A stretch of 14,392 bases of DNA, from the NCBI GenBank assembly GCA_016928395.1, contig JAFGKV010000318.1, forward strand, positions 1-14,392, given 5' to 3'. The notes under the pieces are model-generated. The model did not search any database and was not told the DNA's origin. It saw nothing but the letters and a program-made list of their open reading frames with translations. Positions 3,003 through 8,574 of this stretch are shown one piece after another; positions within the stretch are counted from its first letter, which is position 1, and the number at the start of each line of letters is the position of its first letter. Both the position numbers and the translations under genes were made by a program. The stretch is from Candidatus Fermentibacterota bacterium. Its GTDB lineage: Bacteria > JAFGKV01.

Positions 3003-3227
3003 CTACCCCCCTCCTATGGGAGGAAAGATCGAGACCGCGTCATTGTCCTGAAGAACATCCTTAGGGGCCGCATGACGTCCATTACGAAAGATGATGGCAG
3101 CTTCACCGGGGGGAATGGCGAGATCATCCAGTATGTTCTGGATCGTCGTGTTCTCGAGGCATTCCCGTTGTGCGGTGTCGAACCGCCCGTGTTTCAGCAT
3201 CGCGAACAGCTTGATCGTCACCTGCAT
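3003..3227 (-). CDS. MoaD/ThiS-family sulfur carrier protein
   Basis: A 74-aa ubiquitin-like beta-grasp protein. It opens with the strand 'QVTIKLFAMLKHG', has a central helix with 'TIQNILDDL', then 'IIFRNGRHA', then a final strand ending FPPIGGG. Activation of the C-terminal Gly-Gly by adenylation and thiocarboxylation is the family's chemistry: MoaD donates sulfur to the dithiolene of molybdopterin, ThiS to thiazole. The neighbouring tungsten-type AOR argues for a cofactor-maturation role. It is the last gene of the minus-strand group, 67 bp after the 194-aa gene. An AGGT lies about 12 nt before the ATG, so the ribosome site is weak. The tail has three glycines rather than two. Whether it serves pterin synthesis in general or this AOR only cannot be told here. 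Confidence 0.85.
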   Translation of the reverse strand: MQVTIKLFAMLKHGRFDTAQRECLENTTIQNILDDLAIPPGEAAIIFRNGRHAAPKDVLQDNDAVSIFPPIGGG

Positions 3228-3294: not shown

Positions 3295-3879
3295 TCAAGA
3301 GGCGGCGCCCGTAACCGCTATCGTCAACAGCGCCATTTCGCCGGAAAAGAGAGCATGGTCCCTCCGCAATCTCTGGCATTCGATTCGTTCACCGTTGACG
3401 GTGAGATTCCTGCACTTCTCCCAGAAGTCATCCGGTTGCCGCGCGAGAGCGCGGGCGAGATCACGGCATTTCACGAGAACGCCTCTCTTGAGGAAGCCGG
3501 GCCCGAGCTCATCCATGATCAGATTGAAGAGTTTCAATCTGACGGGCACCATTCCCGCACGCCAGGACTCCCCACTCTCGGCATGAGTGATGGAACTCCT
3601 GAAGGAGGAATAGAAGCCTCCGCGTCTCATTGTCGCTCCCACCAATCCTGGCATGGCAGCGGAAAGAGCGACAATCGAGCCATCCCGGATCAGCGCGGAA
3701 TCGATATCGTCAATCGGGCTCCCGTCGAGGAAGATGGTGCTGATCCGTGTGTCTATATACTCGGGAGGTATTCTGCATTCCTCGGTGAGGAACTCCCTCA
3801 GTGAGCACCCGGCCCGCGACGTCAGAATGACGCCATCTTGAACGACCTGGGAAACCAGCGAGGAAGGATATTCCTCCAT
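3295..3879 (-). CDS. AOR-cluster protein of unknown function, possible tandem beta-grasp
   Basis: A 194-aa protein without signal peptide or membrane segment, lying between the AOR and MoaD-like genes on the same strand. It matches no named family I can state with confidence, although I believe relatives occur beside AOR genes in anaerobes. By eye its N-terminal half aligns with the MoaD-like neighbour: 'SLREFLTEECRIPPEYID' against 'TIQNILDDLAIPPG', then 'STIFLDGSPIDDIDSALIRD' against 'AIIFRNGRHAAPKDVLQDND', ending MPGLVG where MoaD has PIGGG. The C-terminal half does so again, with 'VPVRLKLFNLI' against 'MQVTIKLFAML', later 'LTVNGERI', and a final 'TIAVTGAAS'. Neither half ends in Gly-Gly, so neither should form a thiocarboxylate. 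A conserved-looking basic patch (ATMRRGGFYSSFRSSITH) links the halves. I infer a structural or chaperone-like role in AOR maturation. The ribosome site is weak. Confidence 0.7.
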   Translation of the reverse strand: MEEYPSSLVSQVVQDGVILTSRAGCSLREFLTEECRIPPEYIDTRISTIFLDGSPIDDIDSALIRDGSIVALSAAMPGLVGATMRRGGFYSSFRSSITHAESGESWRAGMVPVRLKLFNLIMDELGPGFLKRGVLVKCRDLARALARQPDDFWEKCRNLTVNGERIECQRLRRDHALFSGEMALLTIAVTGAAS

Positions 3880-4000
3880 GGAAAGCCTAAGACCGAGGGG
3901 AGGCGGCTCTCTCTGCGGCGCCGTGCTGTTAGTGCTCAGAGGAACCTCGTGCCAACGGCAATGAGGAAAGGGGTGCGCTTCGTCGACATGCCCCTGTCAT

Positions 4001-4033
4001 GAAGAGGGAGAGGCCTGGCGCCTCTCCCTCTTC
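4001..4033 (-). terminator. 14-bp perfect hairpin just downstream of the AOR gene
   Basis: GAAGAGGGAGAGGC (4001-4014) is the exact reverse complement of GCCTCTCCCTCTTC (4020-4033), with a 5-nt loop (4015-4019). It starts 14 bp after the AOR stop and lies in the 168-bp gap before the 194-aa gene. No U-tract follows on the minus strand, so it may reduce rather than abolish read-through, or protect the AOR mRNA 3' end. Either would make the enzyme more abundant than the two small proteins downstream. Confidence 0.55.
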
Positions 4034-4047
4034 CAGTCCACGAAGGG

Positions 4048-5784
4048 TCACCAGTTGAAGACCTTGTCGAGATCCTCGTCCTTGACGGTGAATGTCACGT
4101 TGTGCGGTGCAACAGGCTCGGTTGAGAAATACCGGGGCAGCCGGTCGTGCAGCGCGGTGAAACCGGCCCGCGCGTTGAAATCCCGCTCCATGCTGAGCAC
4201 CTTCTTGCCCAGCTCAACGACGCCGTCGCCGGTGAGACTCAGGCCGTAGAAGGCATTGAGCAGGTCCAGAAGGGCCTGGAATGTGTCTGGCTGATCGAGG
4301 ATCGCGAATGCGATGAAGAGGCACATGCCGGTGGAGTCGACCGCCGCGGTCGCGATCTGGAGATTGCGCGAAAGCTCAATCTGTCCCTCCGTCTTGAGCG
4401 GATCGACATAGCCGCCGACCTTGAGGATGTTGGTTGCGATGGCGTATCCGGCGGTATGGTCAGCTCCCATGGTCGACGTGGCATAGGTGACCCCGATTCC
4501 TTGTACCGCCCGCGGATCGTAGGCAGGCATCGCCTGGCCCTTGACCACGGGAACGCGTTCGACACCGTAGACTTTGCCGGTGACCGCCGCGCCGCCGCCG
4601 AGGATGCGGCCAAGATGCGAGCCTTTGCCCACTTCCTTCACGAGATTGATGGCCGCCTCGGCATCGCCGAACGTGGCAAGACCTGCTTCCATCGCAACAC
4701 CAATCGTGGCGCCCATTTCAATGGTGTCGATTCCGTACGTGTCATCGAGGAAGTCGAGCATGGCGATGGCATCAAGATCGTCGATGCCGCAGTTGGCTCC
4801 GTGTGCCCAGACCGTTTCGTATTCAGGCTGCTTGGTCAGGTAGTGCCCGTCTTTGTCGTGATAGATACCCGAGCAGCGGATGACGCAGCCTTCATGACAG
4901 CCATGCGTTGCAAGGCCACCCCGTTTCACCTCGATCTCGGCTTCGGTCTCGCCGCTGATCTTGGCGGTGCCCTCAAAGCGGCCCTCCTTGAAGTTTCTGG
5001 TCGGATAGGCTCCCGCCTCGTTGATGATATTCGCCAAGACATTCGTGCCGTACGCGGGGAGGGCCTGGCCGGTGACCGGGTGCTTCAGAAGCCCCGCGGT
5101 GAATCGCTTGTTGGCATCCTTGAACCCCTCGGGATCCTTGGCTTCACGCATGGGCATGCCCGTGTCGTCGAGCACGATCACCTTGACCCCCTTTGAGCCC
5201 ATGACCGCTCCAACGCCGCCACGGCCTGCATGCCGGGAAGGGTGAAGCTCCATGTCGGTGCAGGCGATTGAGGCAACATTCATCTTCATCTCGCCGGCAG
5301 TCCCGATCGACATACAGGCGACGTTGTCACCGAATTCAGCCGTTATCCTGGGGATAAGGTCGTAGTTCGTGAGCATTCTGAGGCTGTTGTCGATGGTGAT
5401 CGCTGCGCCATCTTTGTTGATGAGGATCTTGTAGATATCGTCGGTCTTGGGGTTACCTTCGAGAATGATTGCCGCGTAGCCGAGCCGTGCGATGACTTGC
5501 GCAGCCTGGCCTCCCGAGTTCGCCTCCTTGATCCCGCCGGTGAGAGGGCTCTTGCAGCCGACTGAGATTCTGCCCGACATAGACGCGATCGTCCCGCTCA
5601 AGAGGCCGGGCGCGATGACCAGCTTGTTTTCTTCGCCCAGGGGATGGCACAGGGGAGGGACCTCGCGCGACACGACGGCGGTCGTCATGGCTCGTCCGCC
5701 CAGGCCGGCGTAATCGCCAACCGGTGAGACCGTGGCTTTGGGCCCTCCATCGGCGCCCATGTCAATCCTTAGTATCTTGTCCAT
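4048..5784 (-). CDS. Aldehyde:ferredoxin oxidoreductase family protein (tungsten-type)
   Basis: A 578-aa cytoplasmic oxidoreductase of the AOR family, which oxidises aldehydes to acids with ferredoxin as electron acceptor, using a W (or Mo) bis-pyranopterin cofactor and one [4Fe-4S] cluster. The N-terminal cofactor-binding domain is recognisable from 'DYAGLGGRA' (24-32) through 'GLLSGTIASMSGRISVGCKS' (60-79) and 'GRGGVGAVMGSKGVK' (187-201). Candidate cluster ligands are C296, C300, C304 ('THGCHEGCVIRCSG') and the distal C488 ('DSTGMC'). The spacing is C-x3-C-x3-C, where the archaeal enzyme has C-x2-C-x3-C, so this belongs to a divergent subgroup. Length is near the family norm (about 600 aa). 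The start is secure: GGAGGT lies 5 nt upstream of the ATG at 5782-5784, within AGGAGGGAGGT. It is the first gene of a group with the 194-aa protein and the MoaD-like carrier. No partner ferredoxin gene is present. The aldehyde substrate cannot be predicted. Confidence 0.93.
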   Translation of the reverse strand: MDKILRIDMGADGGPKATVSPVGDYAGLGGRAMTTAVVSREVPPLCHPLGEENKLVIAPGLLSGTIASMSGRISVGCKSPLTGGIKEANSGGQAAQVIARLGYAAIILEGNPKTDDIYKILINKDGAAITIDNSLRMLTNYDLIPRITAEFGDNVACMSIGTAGEMKMNVASIACTDMELHPSRHAGRGGVGAVMGSKGVKVIVLDDTGMPMREAKDPEGFKDANKRFTAGLLKHPVTGQALPAYGTNVLANIINEAGAYPTRNFKEGRFEGTAKISGETEAEIEVKRGGLATHGCHEGCVIRCSGIYHDKDGHYLTKQPEYETVWAHGANCGIDDLDAIAMLDFLDDTYGIDTIEMGATIGVAMEAGLATFGDAEAAINLVKEVGKGSHLGRILGGGAAVTGKVYGVERVPVVKGQAMPAYDPRAVQGIGVTYATSTMGADHTAGYAIATNILKVGGYVDPLKTEGQIELSRNLQIATAAVDSTGMCLFIAFAILDQPDTFQALLDLLNAFYGLSLTGDGVVELGKKVLSMERDFNARAGFTALHDRLPRYFSTEPVAPHNVTFTVKDEDLDKVFNW

Positions 5785-5836: not shown

Positions 5837-6150
5837 TCGCGCATCGGATCCTGTAGGCCCGGTCCCAGATCGAGAGCCCCGGCCGATTCTCACGGCGGCG
5901 ATGATGGCTGCGAGAAAGTGGAGTCTGAGGCTTGGGACGTCACCTCCTCCCGCTCCAAGCGTGGATGCTGGTTTCTGAGCCCCCAGTCTATGGGTTCTGC
6001 CTATTCTGGCCGCAGATCATAGGGAGTTCCCCGTGAGTGTAGCATCAGGGTTCGGGATTCGTCAAGGGTGGTGCGGGGGGCCTCATCGCGGGCCCGTCGA
6101 GCGTCTGGGCATGACGGCGGGTGTCCTTCCTCCTCCGCGCCTTTGGACCC

Positions 6151-6179
6151 TTGACACGACCTCGCCGGCCTTCCAACAT
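6151..6179 (+). promoter_or_regulatory. Candidate sigma-70-type promoter for the beta-helix gene
   Basis: TTGACA at 6151-6156 is a perfect -35 box, followed after 17 bp by CAACAT (6174-6179), a weak -10 with three of six consensus bases. Transcription would begin near 6187, leaving a leader of about 55 nt before the ATG at 6244. The weak -10 and the fact that many phyla of this kind use other promoter consensus sequences keep confidence low. Confidence 0.25.
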
Positions 6180-6243
6180 CGACCAGAGCGGTGCGGTATC
6201 GTGCCGTGCGCCCTTTCATGCTCCAACATGCGGGGATGTGACC

Positions 6244-8163
6244 ATGACCGCAGGATCCACGTTGTGTCCGGTGCGTAGACTCAGATCATCCGTCACAACA
6301 TTCCGCATTCCGCTCCTCTGCCTGATCGGATGCGCGACTATGGTGGCAGCACAGACGATCCATGTGGACATTGCGAATACATCGGGGATCGAAGATGGGA
6401 CGGTCGAGCATCCCTTCAACACCATTCAGGAAGCATTGAGCCCGGCGCAGAATGGAGATTCCCTCTCGATCGCCCCCGGGACGTATGCCGAAGGTCGGCT
6501 CCTGATCGAGGCGTGTGTTGCCATTGCCGGGCACGACCGGGGCTCGACGATCGTCGATGGGATGTTTGTCCTGTCTACCCATCTCGACAGCCTTCCCGTG
6601 TCAATCACCCGGTTGTGGTGTCAGAACGTGATGCACAGCGACAGCGGCGTAACCATGACGCCCCTGGCGGTAGAGGACTGCGGATTGCAGGTGTTCAACG
6701 ACTCGACGGCATCGGTCTCGATGCCGGGGAGTGTGCTCCTCAAGAATTGCACCGTGACTGACAGCATTCGCGTGTGGAACGCCGCATGCAGCGCCCCCCG
6801 GGAGATCACCAACTGCCAGTCGAGCGGCGGGCTGAAGGTACACGCGACCAGCTCGCACGGGGACATCATCCGCATCCACGGCAACCAGGTGCAGGGGAGC
6901 ATCGAGGTGACCGCCGTGTCCAAGAGCGACACGATCTACGTTACCAACAACACCGTCGGCGACAGCCTCGTGGTGACCGCCACTGCCTCCAGTGAGCCGA
7001 ACATCGTGACGGCCAACACCATCGGCCATGGGGCACGGATGGAGGCCGTTGCCAGCGACGGGTTCCAGTTGCGGGGCAATTTGATCCTGAGCGGGTCGCT
7101 CTCGATGCAGTTCACCGCCCTCTCGAGCAGTGACGTGACCACCAACGATTTCCTCAACGGGGGCATCGACCTCCGCGCCGTCTCCGCCGACTTCGTCGCG
7201 GAGGGGAACCGTATCTGTACTGATGGTACCGTGAACGGGGTACGCCTGCACACCACCGCGGGAGGCGAGATCGTCGATAACACCATCACGCTTCCCTATG
7301 TGCCACCAACCGGTGAACCGTTCGAGTCGGATACCAGCGGGATCTGCGGCGTCCGCGTCAGGGCGGTATCGTACACGGGAACGCGAGGGAACACCATCCA
7401 GGGCGGTACCTACGGCGTGTACACGTGGTCCACCTCCTCGGGCCACATCTCAGGCAACACCGTCAGAAGTTCCCACCATGGGGTCTACCTTGCCGCGGTA
7501 TCGGCGTGGGTCGACAGCAACCTGGTGGAGAACTGCGTGGCCGATGGCGTGATTTTGAGCTACCAGCCCGACTACGGCGACACCAACTCGATCAGGGTCA
7601 ACCACAACACGATTCGGAACAACGGGGGACACGGGATCTGGACCAAAGGCGGCCTCTCCATGGGCAGTGTGGATGATCCGAGCACGGGCTTCAACATCCT
7701 GAAGACCAACGGCGGATACGACCTCTATGTGGAGACCCCGGCCACCTTCGTCGACACTGTATGGGCGCAGAACAATGCGTGGACGCATGACTCGGAGGCC
7801 GCGGTGGCCCGACAAGACATCTACGACGCGACTGACGACCCCAGCAGAGCGAGGGTGGTGTTCATGCCCATGATCATTCTCGATGCGGATGACGGTGTGC
7901 CGGTTCCAGAGGCTCTGCTTCGAATCTCGCCGAACCCAACACGCGGCAGGTTCACTATCGAAGCGCTGAGGGGGCACAGCCCGATTGCGAGAGTCAGGCT
8001 GCTGGACCTGTGTGGGCGCGTCGTCGCGTCTGTGTCGATTCCGGAATCAGGCTCGGACACGGTGGGGTTCGACGTCAGCGACCTGCCCGCGGGGGTGTAT
8101 CCGGTGCGAGTTCATCCGGACGATGGATCTGGGACCAGGGGCATTCTTCTGATCAAGCGATAG
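6244..8163 (+). CDS. Secreted parallel beta-helix protein with T9SS type A-like C-terminal domain
   Basis: A 639-aa predicted surface or secreted protein. The basic N-terminus (RRLR) and hydrophobic run 'IPLLCLIGCATMVAA' form a signal peptide with likely cleavage after A36. LIGC at 27-30 also fits a lipobox, so a lipoprotein is possible. Residues 38-85 (for example DGTVEHPFNTIQEAL and 'GDSLSIAPGTYAEG') are the typical first turn of DUF1565-like right-handed beta-helices. About 400 residues of Asn-rich turns follow, such as 'NTIRNNGGHGIW' and 'GNTVRSSHHGVYL', as in pectate-lyase-like or NosD-like folds that bind or cleave polysaccharide. I see no clear catalytic triad. The last ~80 residues ('ISPNPTRGRFTIE', 'LLDLCGRVVASVS', 'DVSDLPAGVYPVRV', 'GILLIKR') match the type A sorting or FlgD-like Ig domain. 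The ATG at 6244 is preferred over the upstream GTG because it places the signal peptide at the start. It stands alone. Confidence 0.8.
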   Translation: MTAGSTLCPVRRLRSSVTTFRIPLLCLIGCATMVAAQTIHVDIANTSGIEDGTVEHPFNTIQEALSPAQNGDSLSIAPGTYAEGRLLIEACVAIAGHDRGSTIVDGMFVLSTHLDSLPVSITRLWCQNVMHSDSGVTMTPLAVEDCGLQVFNDSTASVSMPGSVLLKNCTVTDSIRVWNAACSAPREITNCQSSGGLKVHATSSHGDIIRIHGNQVQGSIEVTAVSKSDTIYVTNNTVGDSLVVTATASSEPNIVTANTIGHGARMEAVASDGFQLRGNLILSGSLSMQFTALSSSDVTTNDFLNGGIDLRAVSADFVAEGNRICTDGTVNGVRLHTTAGGEIVDNTITLPYVPPTGEPFESDTSGICGVRVRAVSYTGTRGNTIQGGTYGVYTWSTSSGHISGNTVRSSHHGVYLAAVSAWVDSNLVENCVADGVILSYQPDYGDTNSIRVNHNTIRNNGGHGIWTKGGLSMGSVDDPSTGFNILKTNGGYDLYVETPATFVDTVWAQNNAWTHDSEAAVARQDIYDATDDPSRARVVFMPMIILDADDGVPVPEALLRISPNPTRGRFTIEALRGHSPIARVRLLDLCGRVVASVSIPESGSDTVGFDVSDLPAGVYPVRVHPDDGSGTRGILLIKR

Positions 8164-8533
8164 TGGGAATGAGGGGCCAGAACTGCACCCAGAGGATGTA
8201 TGTCGACGCCGGCGCGAAATGTCCCAGAATCGCCGGTGAGCGGATTGCCTCCGAATCCGTGCGGTACGCGGGCCCGGCCACGCGGAACGCTCTCTTGGAG
8301 TGCGCAGGCTTGCCACAGCGCCGTGGCTGTCGGCAAGAGTGGGGGATTCGATGGGAAGCGTGCCGGATTCCGACCCAAGGTGCTGGACTGCCGCGTGCGC
8401 TTTGGATGGTGGGAGCTGGGGGGATTTCGGGGTCAGGTATTGCTTTTTGTGTTTTGAAGGTCAGCTTTCACCTTCTCCAAGCGTTGACGCACACCTTTGT
8501 CCCAGTCCATCGCCATCCGCGCAATGACGAAGT

Positions 8534-8574
8534 GTTACCTATGTTCTGAACCTGAAACGTTACCCATGTTCTGA
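8534..8574 (+). repeat. Tandem GTTACCYATGTTCTGA motif, two copies
   Basis: GTTACCTATGTTCTGA (8534-8549) and GTTACCCATGTTCTGA (8559-8574) differ at one base and are spaced by 25 bp. Tandem motifs like this are known as transposase-binding sites at insertion-sequence ends, and I associate this GTTACCTATGT type with IS481-like elements, with low certainty. No transposase frame is adjacent, so it would be an orphan end. Confidence 0.4.

Follow-up and report, generated by a model that had tools for sequence, protein, structure and literature searches.

What is a 194-residue protein doing between a tungsten aldehyde oxidoreductase (AOR) and a small sulfur carrier of the MoaD/ThiS family, when it resembles the carrier but lacks its reactive end? 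The locus lies in a window of 14,392 nucleotides, the whole stretch of DNA analysed here, which is an entire contig of a 4.8-Mb genome (G000). The three genes are transcribed from the minus strand in the order AOR, the 194-residue protein (p194) and a 74-aa MoaD/ThiS protein. The first-pass annotation had proposed that p194 docks the cofactor machinery onto AOR, or holds apo-AOR. Since p194 tracks one group of AORs and has been fused to a dead AOR fragment, we conclude that it probably serves AOR as a dedicated helper, either installing the tungsten cofactor or guarding it. The features of the window are as follows.

3295-3879, minus strand: p194, 194-aa AOR-linked MoaD-like protein in two domains (annotated frame)
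3658-3879, minus strand: N-terminal beta-grasp (MoaD/ThiS-like) domain of p194, residues 1-74 (AlphaFold; ThiS, Z 5.1)
3598-3669, minus strand: conserved core segment of p194, ALSAAMPGLVGATMRRGGFYSSFR, residues 71-94 (top family conservation, low pLDDT)
3298-3555, minus strand: C-terminal half of p194, probable degenerate beta-grasp, KLFN...G conserved (profile and model comparison)
3880-3939, minus strand: probable N-terminal extension of p194, strand 1 LGLRLS (from homology; CTG start at 3939)
3003-3227, minus strand: 74-aa MoaD/ThiS-family sulfur carrier ending in IGGG (PF02597, 3e-10)
4048-5784, minus strand: tungsten AOR, complete (PF02730, PF01314; aligned to 1aor and 9mqx)

The p194 gene and the fold of its two halves

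According to Pfam and the alignments, the AOR of the window comprises AFOR_N and AFOR_C and has all four cluster cysteines as well as the active-site Glu, Tyr and His. It is separated from p194 by a 14-bp perfect hairpin with no T-run (4001-4033, minus strand), possibly an attenuator or a processing site. The annotated ATG of p194 (3879) falls within strand 1 of the family profile. Adding the in-frame upstream codons (LGLRLS) raised the profile score from 229.7 to 232.8 bits and moved the start of the alignment from profile position 21 to 7. With an ATG internal to a strand and a profile match upstream of it, translation probably starts further upstream at a non-ATG codon, either CTG 3939, which has a GAGG-like ribosome site 5 nt upstream, or another one.

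Neither Pfam nor NCBIfam has a match for p194, and the curated MoaD/ThiS models PF02597, TIGR01682 and TIGR01683 leave it unmatched. When 18 family members were compared with Pfam, only chance matches were obtained and ThiS was matched by none. Sequence searches of the PDB with p194 and with its profile gave nothing significant. An AlphaFold2 model of the whole protein, built with 18 relatives, has a mean pLDDT of 83.9 and a pTM of 0.79, and a Foldseek search with it returned no significant match. Residues 11-70 are modelled with pLDDT block means of 93-96. The best structural match of this N-terminal half is ThiS (1zud; rmsd 1.5 A over 58 residues) at Z 5.1, a score that is weak by itself but is accompanied by top rows nearly all of one fold, after ThiS mostly MoaD, CysO, Urm1 and other ubiquitin-like structures, and by a concordant profile match (hhalign 95.7% against 51 MoaD members; at most 6.9% in 40 column-shuffled controls). 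The N-half is thus predicted to be a MoaD/ThiS beta-grasp domain.

The C-half scored 25-35% against MoaD by hhalign (shuffled controls at most 2.2%) and 72.8% against the N-half (at most 4.1% in 60 shuffles). In both halves the elements succeed one another as strand, helix, strand, helices, strand, last strand. Modelled in isolation, the C-half (pLDDT 73) found no structure with a Z of at least 2; Foldseek ranked MoaD and ThiS as its first two matches, but with E values of 3-5. It is probably a degenerate second beta-grasp copy. Of the two MoaD-like domains originally proposed, therefore, the first is clear, while the second is probable from profile and element order.

The C-terminal Gly-Gly, the end that is adenylated and converted to a thiocarboxylate, is found in 0 of 73 family members, in line with what had been noted for p194. 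The family itself conserves no cysteine cluster. Compared with MoaD/ThiS (PF02597), p194 has the same beta-grasp fold in its N-half, MoaD and often ThiF in its operon, and the same cofactor context. Unlike MoaD/ThiS, it has neither the Gly-Gly end nor a Pfam match, and it carries a conserved segment of about 20 residues past the last strand as well as the degenerate second domain.

Distribution and linkage to one group of AORs

A scan of 84,980 prokaryotic species (one genome each) with short peptide patterns retrieved 17 relatives of p194, every one deltaproteobacterial: they come from Geobacteraceae, other Desulfuromonadales, Syntrophobacteraceae, Desulfomonile and Desulfonatronum. By profile, 60 of 395 genomes from the phylum of one of these relatives were positive; no relative was present in a plasmid collection. 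Judged by its sequence conservation, p194 is a real, conserved gene. Among three genomes of the window's own phylum, both p194 and a close AOR are confined to G000, which suggests that the AOR-p194 cassette was acquired by transfer. Contamination of the metagenome-assembled genome (MAG) may be another source; against it we set the product of a nearby gene (6121-8163), whose paralogous matches at other sites of G000 are joined by weak matches in G001.

In all 16 scan loci with enough sequence, p194 is preceded on its own strand by an AOR, 70-83% identical to that of the window. In the larger set of 78 p194 loci, the distance to an AOR is below 400 bp in 50 (45 of them with the AOR upstream and on the same strand), so that the family is found mostly beside AOR genes. 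Another 18 show no AOR in the stretch examined, some because the contig ends. Certain copies are unlinked to AOR or divergently transcribed, and it is the unlinked ones that put the association to the stronger test. All 17 genomes tested whose p194 is unlinked (or only weakly matching) have an AOR somewhere, 54-78% identical to that of the window in 15.

Counting as related any AOR with an E value of 1e-100 or better, 172 genomes have a related AOR and 59 of them carry p194, against 1 of the other 223 (Fisher 2e-23). Of the 50 genomes that have an AOR of 70% identity or more, 45 carry p194; where every related AOR is more distant, 14 of 122 do (Fisher 3e-23). These values are to be read with the kinship of the 395 genomes in mind, which are not independent trials. 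The linked AORs fall mostly into one clade. Co-occurrence of p194 is thus near-exclusive with one group of AORs. The converse is less strict: in five genomes with a close AOR p194 was not detected, nor was it present in their AOR loci examined. Since some close-AOR sub-lineages (G374, G322/G112 and G239/G112/G080) apparently miss it, p194 does not seem indispensable to close AORs.

A C-x3-C-x3-C cluster motif was considered as a mark of p194-linked AORs. We rejected it as a signature, because 20 of 23 AORs in loci devoid of p194 share the motif.

A conserved segment and fusions to a mini-AOR

The strongest conservation in p194 sits just past domain 1, not within the folds, and spans A71-R94 with the consensus ALSxAMPGLVGAxxRR(8)R. 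Across 73 sequences P77 and R94 are essentially invariant, followed by G78 and G81 (99%), S73 (96%) and R85 (95%). The same region is poorly modelled, with pLDDT block means of 77, 54 and 60 over residues 71-100 and values below 50 at residues 83-85. Near-invariance combined with poor folding on its own is what would be expected of a segment acting on a partner, and we infer such a role for residues 71-94.

A candidate for the partner surface comes from loci, all from one taxonomic order, in which p194 is fused to, or neighbours, a fragment of AOR (mini-AOR):

L051 2417-3751: mini-AOR, fused to p194
L146 2248-3648: mini-AOR, fused to p194
L147 205-1467: mini-AOR, fused to p194
L148 4782-5621: mini-AOR, probably fused to p194
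L057 5450-6037: mini-AOR, separate gene beside p194
L150 4868-5689: mini-AOR, separate gene beside p194

The mini-AOR spans AOR positions of about 290-408 and 480-540. In each of the six, the four cysteines of the cluster and the two DxxG motifs for the pterin are retained, the AFOR_N domain and the HTAGY stretch that holds the active-site His (His448) are gone, and Ala or Gly takes the place of the catalytic Glu313 (P. furiosus numbering; active-site residues as listed in PMC13328260). With the catalytic Glu, HTAGY and AFOR_N missing, the mini-AOR cannot work as an AOR enzyme; it may still bind a cluster, as well as the cofactor by one of its faces. Five of the six loci also have a full-length AOR close by; for L051 it is located elsewhere in the genome. 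The mini-AOR occurs solely with divergent p194s (AGLPG...KKDS). Its fusion to p194 indicates domains 2/3 of AOR as the partner surface.

Cofactor context and proposed role

Most Geobacter-type loci, and some others, have MoaD downstream of p194. In L003 and L105 the gene after MoaD encodes a ThiF-family enzyme, and in L007 such a gene adjoins MoaD. The proposed three-gene module with AOR is a real and selective association, with MoaD and often ThiF alongside. All 13 Geobacter-type operons tested (L003 and 12 of 12 further ones) carry a Moco/W riboswitch (RF01055) immediately upstream of AOR; none was found in the window, nor in six other loci tested alongside L003. The 12.7-kb locus L095 has three Moco/W riboswitches downstream of its AOR-p194-MoaD genes (4492-4611, 4880-5000 and 8450-8567, minus strand); two of these follow one another at a distance of about 270 bp. 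LarC-like nickel-insertion genes adjoin MoaD/AOR or p194 in L013 (2398-3642; called by Pfam) and, as judged by eye, in L101 (4742-5929) and L117 (2679-4112). A Thermus plasmid AOR examined for comparison has no MoaD next to it.

A general role of p194 as a substitute for MoaE was considered and rejected, as MoaE is present in 39 of 55 genomes tested, mostly p194-positive ones. MoaE (PF02391) was not found in the three genomes of the window's phylum (G000, G001 and G002) despite their AOR, nor in the AOR-bearing G003, G231, G273, G313, G387 and G184; either a divergent MoaE, MAG gaps or another molybdopterin route may account for this.

AORs about 60% identical (sister AORs) often have, in the place of p194, a single-domain MoaD-like gene that also lacks Gly-Gly (L106, L115, L118, L119 and L121-L124). 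Seven such tailed genes, each beside an AOR without p194, are located as follows:

L106 9814-10146: MoaD-like gene without Gly-Gly
L118 6052-6360: MoaD-like gene without Gly-Gly
L119 6749-7030: MoaD-like gene without Gly-Gly
L121 4585-4890: MoaD-like gene without Gly-Gly
L122 6133-6411: MoaD-like gene without Gly-Gly
L123 2793-3128: MoaD-like gene without Gly-Gly
L124 3551-3877: MoaD-like gene without Gly-Gly

They resemble p194 in their beta-grasp family, operon position and a C-terminal tail past the last strand. Unlike p194, they are single domains of 92-118 aa, and their tails read PPELAFNLY or GTPGPYRVFLG where p194 has AMPGLVGAxxRR. As second MoaD-like genes they match the description of aorD/aorE in Aromatoleum aromaticum, and are possibly their counterparts.

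The AOR operon of A. aromaticum has, like the p194 module, two MoaD-like genes, aorD and aorE (PMC6365974, PMC9295118). Co-expression of aorDE together with tungstate brought AOR activity up to 85 U/mg, compared with 4.5 U/mg before, and the tungsten content to 1.52 per complex (PMC9295118); without added tungstate, activity rose but tungsten content did not. The Aromatoleum enzyme is of the three-subunit AorABC type, unlike that of the window, and p194 is likened to AorD/AorE by description. A 2026 classification (PMC13328260) places WorX, a ThiS-like protein predicted to be pterin-related, near Class I WORs. WorX is like p194 in standing beside a single-subunit tungsten oxidoreductase, and the resemblance of p194 to it is by fold only. 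By description, WorX is just ThiS-like and p194 is set apart by its two domains and distinctive segment; as a ThiS-like protein beside a WOR that consists solely of WorL, the 74-aa MoaD of the window is the better fit to WorX. The relevant passages of Iyer, Burroughs and Aravind 2006 (PMC1779556) report MoaD strictly adjoining AOR, with MoeB near, and propose a role in the tungsten cofactor; the MoaD of those passages is a sulfur carrier, p194 a two-domain protein without Gly-Gly. A literature search, including a text search for the p194 signature, found no description of the family, which agrees with the initial impression that no function had been described. The AOR literature describes only small MoaD/ThiS-like proteins, and the p194 family has been unnamed until now. 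It joins a known kind, the AOR-linked MoaD-like helpers.

We regard it as fairly probable that p194 is an AOR-specific maturation factor, that is, a cofactor-loading chaperone and not a sulfur carrier, and a role analogous to that of AorD/AorE would be the best reading. The docking or apo-AOR-holding role first suggested becomes more concrete, if still conjectural, through the mini-AOR fusions and the riboswitch. The first-pass annotation had not seen either of these (the riboswitch being upstream of Geobacter-type operons), nor the segment A71-R94 or the ATG internal to a strand.

Could p194 be a permanent small subunit instead, structural or for electron-transfer docking, of an otherwise single-subunit AOR? 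Its place directly after AOR, the strict co-occurrence and the fusion to an AOR-derived Fe-S domain would suit such a subunit. We consider this unlikely, given that no cysteine cluster is conserved, that unlinked and divergently transcribed copies exist, that certain close AORs have no p194, and that the Aromatoleum enzyme as purified does not contain the MoaD-like AorD and AorE (PMC6365974). A regulator or inhibitor, with the beta-grasp plugging the active or ferredoxin site when aldehyde or tungsten is scarce, appears quite improbable: the tail is indeed flexible and conserved, and the fused dead mini-AOR could be a decoy or titrating partner, but riboswitch control links the operon to cofactor supply, and the conserved neighbours are MoaD and ThiF, not sensors.

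We give very little credence to a sulfur-carrier pro-form, in which a protease would cut after RRGG and free a thiocarboxylate-forming tail on the N-domain (compare HcyS and MoaD-MoaE fusions). An internal Gly-Gly (RRGG or RKGG) is present in the segment of 50 of 73 members, including that of the window, and certain operons encode a ThiF-type enzyme. The remaining members have DS, NS, GS or HS, so the site is not a universal processing site and Gly-Gly processing is disfavoured; moreover, conserved residues run past it up to R94, and an ordinary MoaD ending in GGG adjoins p194. That the linkage is incidental, with the genes being neighbours by common descent within one lineage and not for a joint function, is just as hard to credit: nearly all relatives come from one phylum-level group, yet AOR still co-occurs with unlinked p194 copies, p194 has separately been fused to an AOR fragment, and the AOR-p194 pair is present also in the different phylum of the window.

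For the maturation factor that we favour, we infer direct binding of AOR, the binding site, handling of the cofactor and release as follows. The MoaD-derived domain would have lost sulfur transfer and kept a protein-docking role. The segment ALSxAMPGLVGAxxRR(8)R would fold into apo-AOR on its open side, that of the pterin and the [4Fe-4S] cluster, at domains 2/3, the same part that the mini-AOR retains. There it might keep apo-AOR open, or present and pass W-bis-MPT, with its arginines contacting the pterin phosphates, and would depart once the cofactor is seated. The C-terminal domain could provide a second, more variable docking surface. Beyond this, it is a tentative thought that p194 founds a class of chaperones for W-bis-pyranopterin enzymes, in which a ubiquitin-like domain without sulfur chemistry places a tail in the pterin/Fe-S cavity of apo-AOR; in one lineage, the dead AOR fragment joined to it would carry the cofactor or act as a scaffold for assembly.

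For the insertion of the tungsten pterin into AOR-family enzymes, the literature offers only putative MoaD-like factors (AorD/AorE and WorX). With p194 there is now a defined family whose conserved segment is a precise target for mutagenesis and whose Geobacter-type operons lend themselves to tests; the natural fusion with the mini-AOR indicates a putative binding site. AORs reduce organic acids to aldehydes, and p194 could aid their heterologous production.
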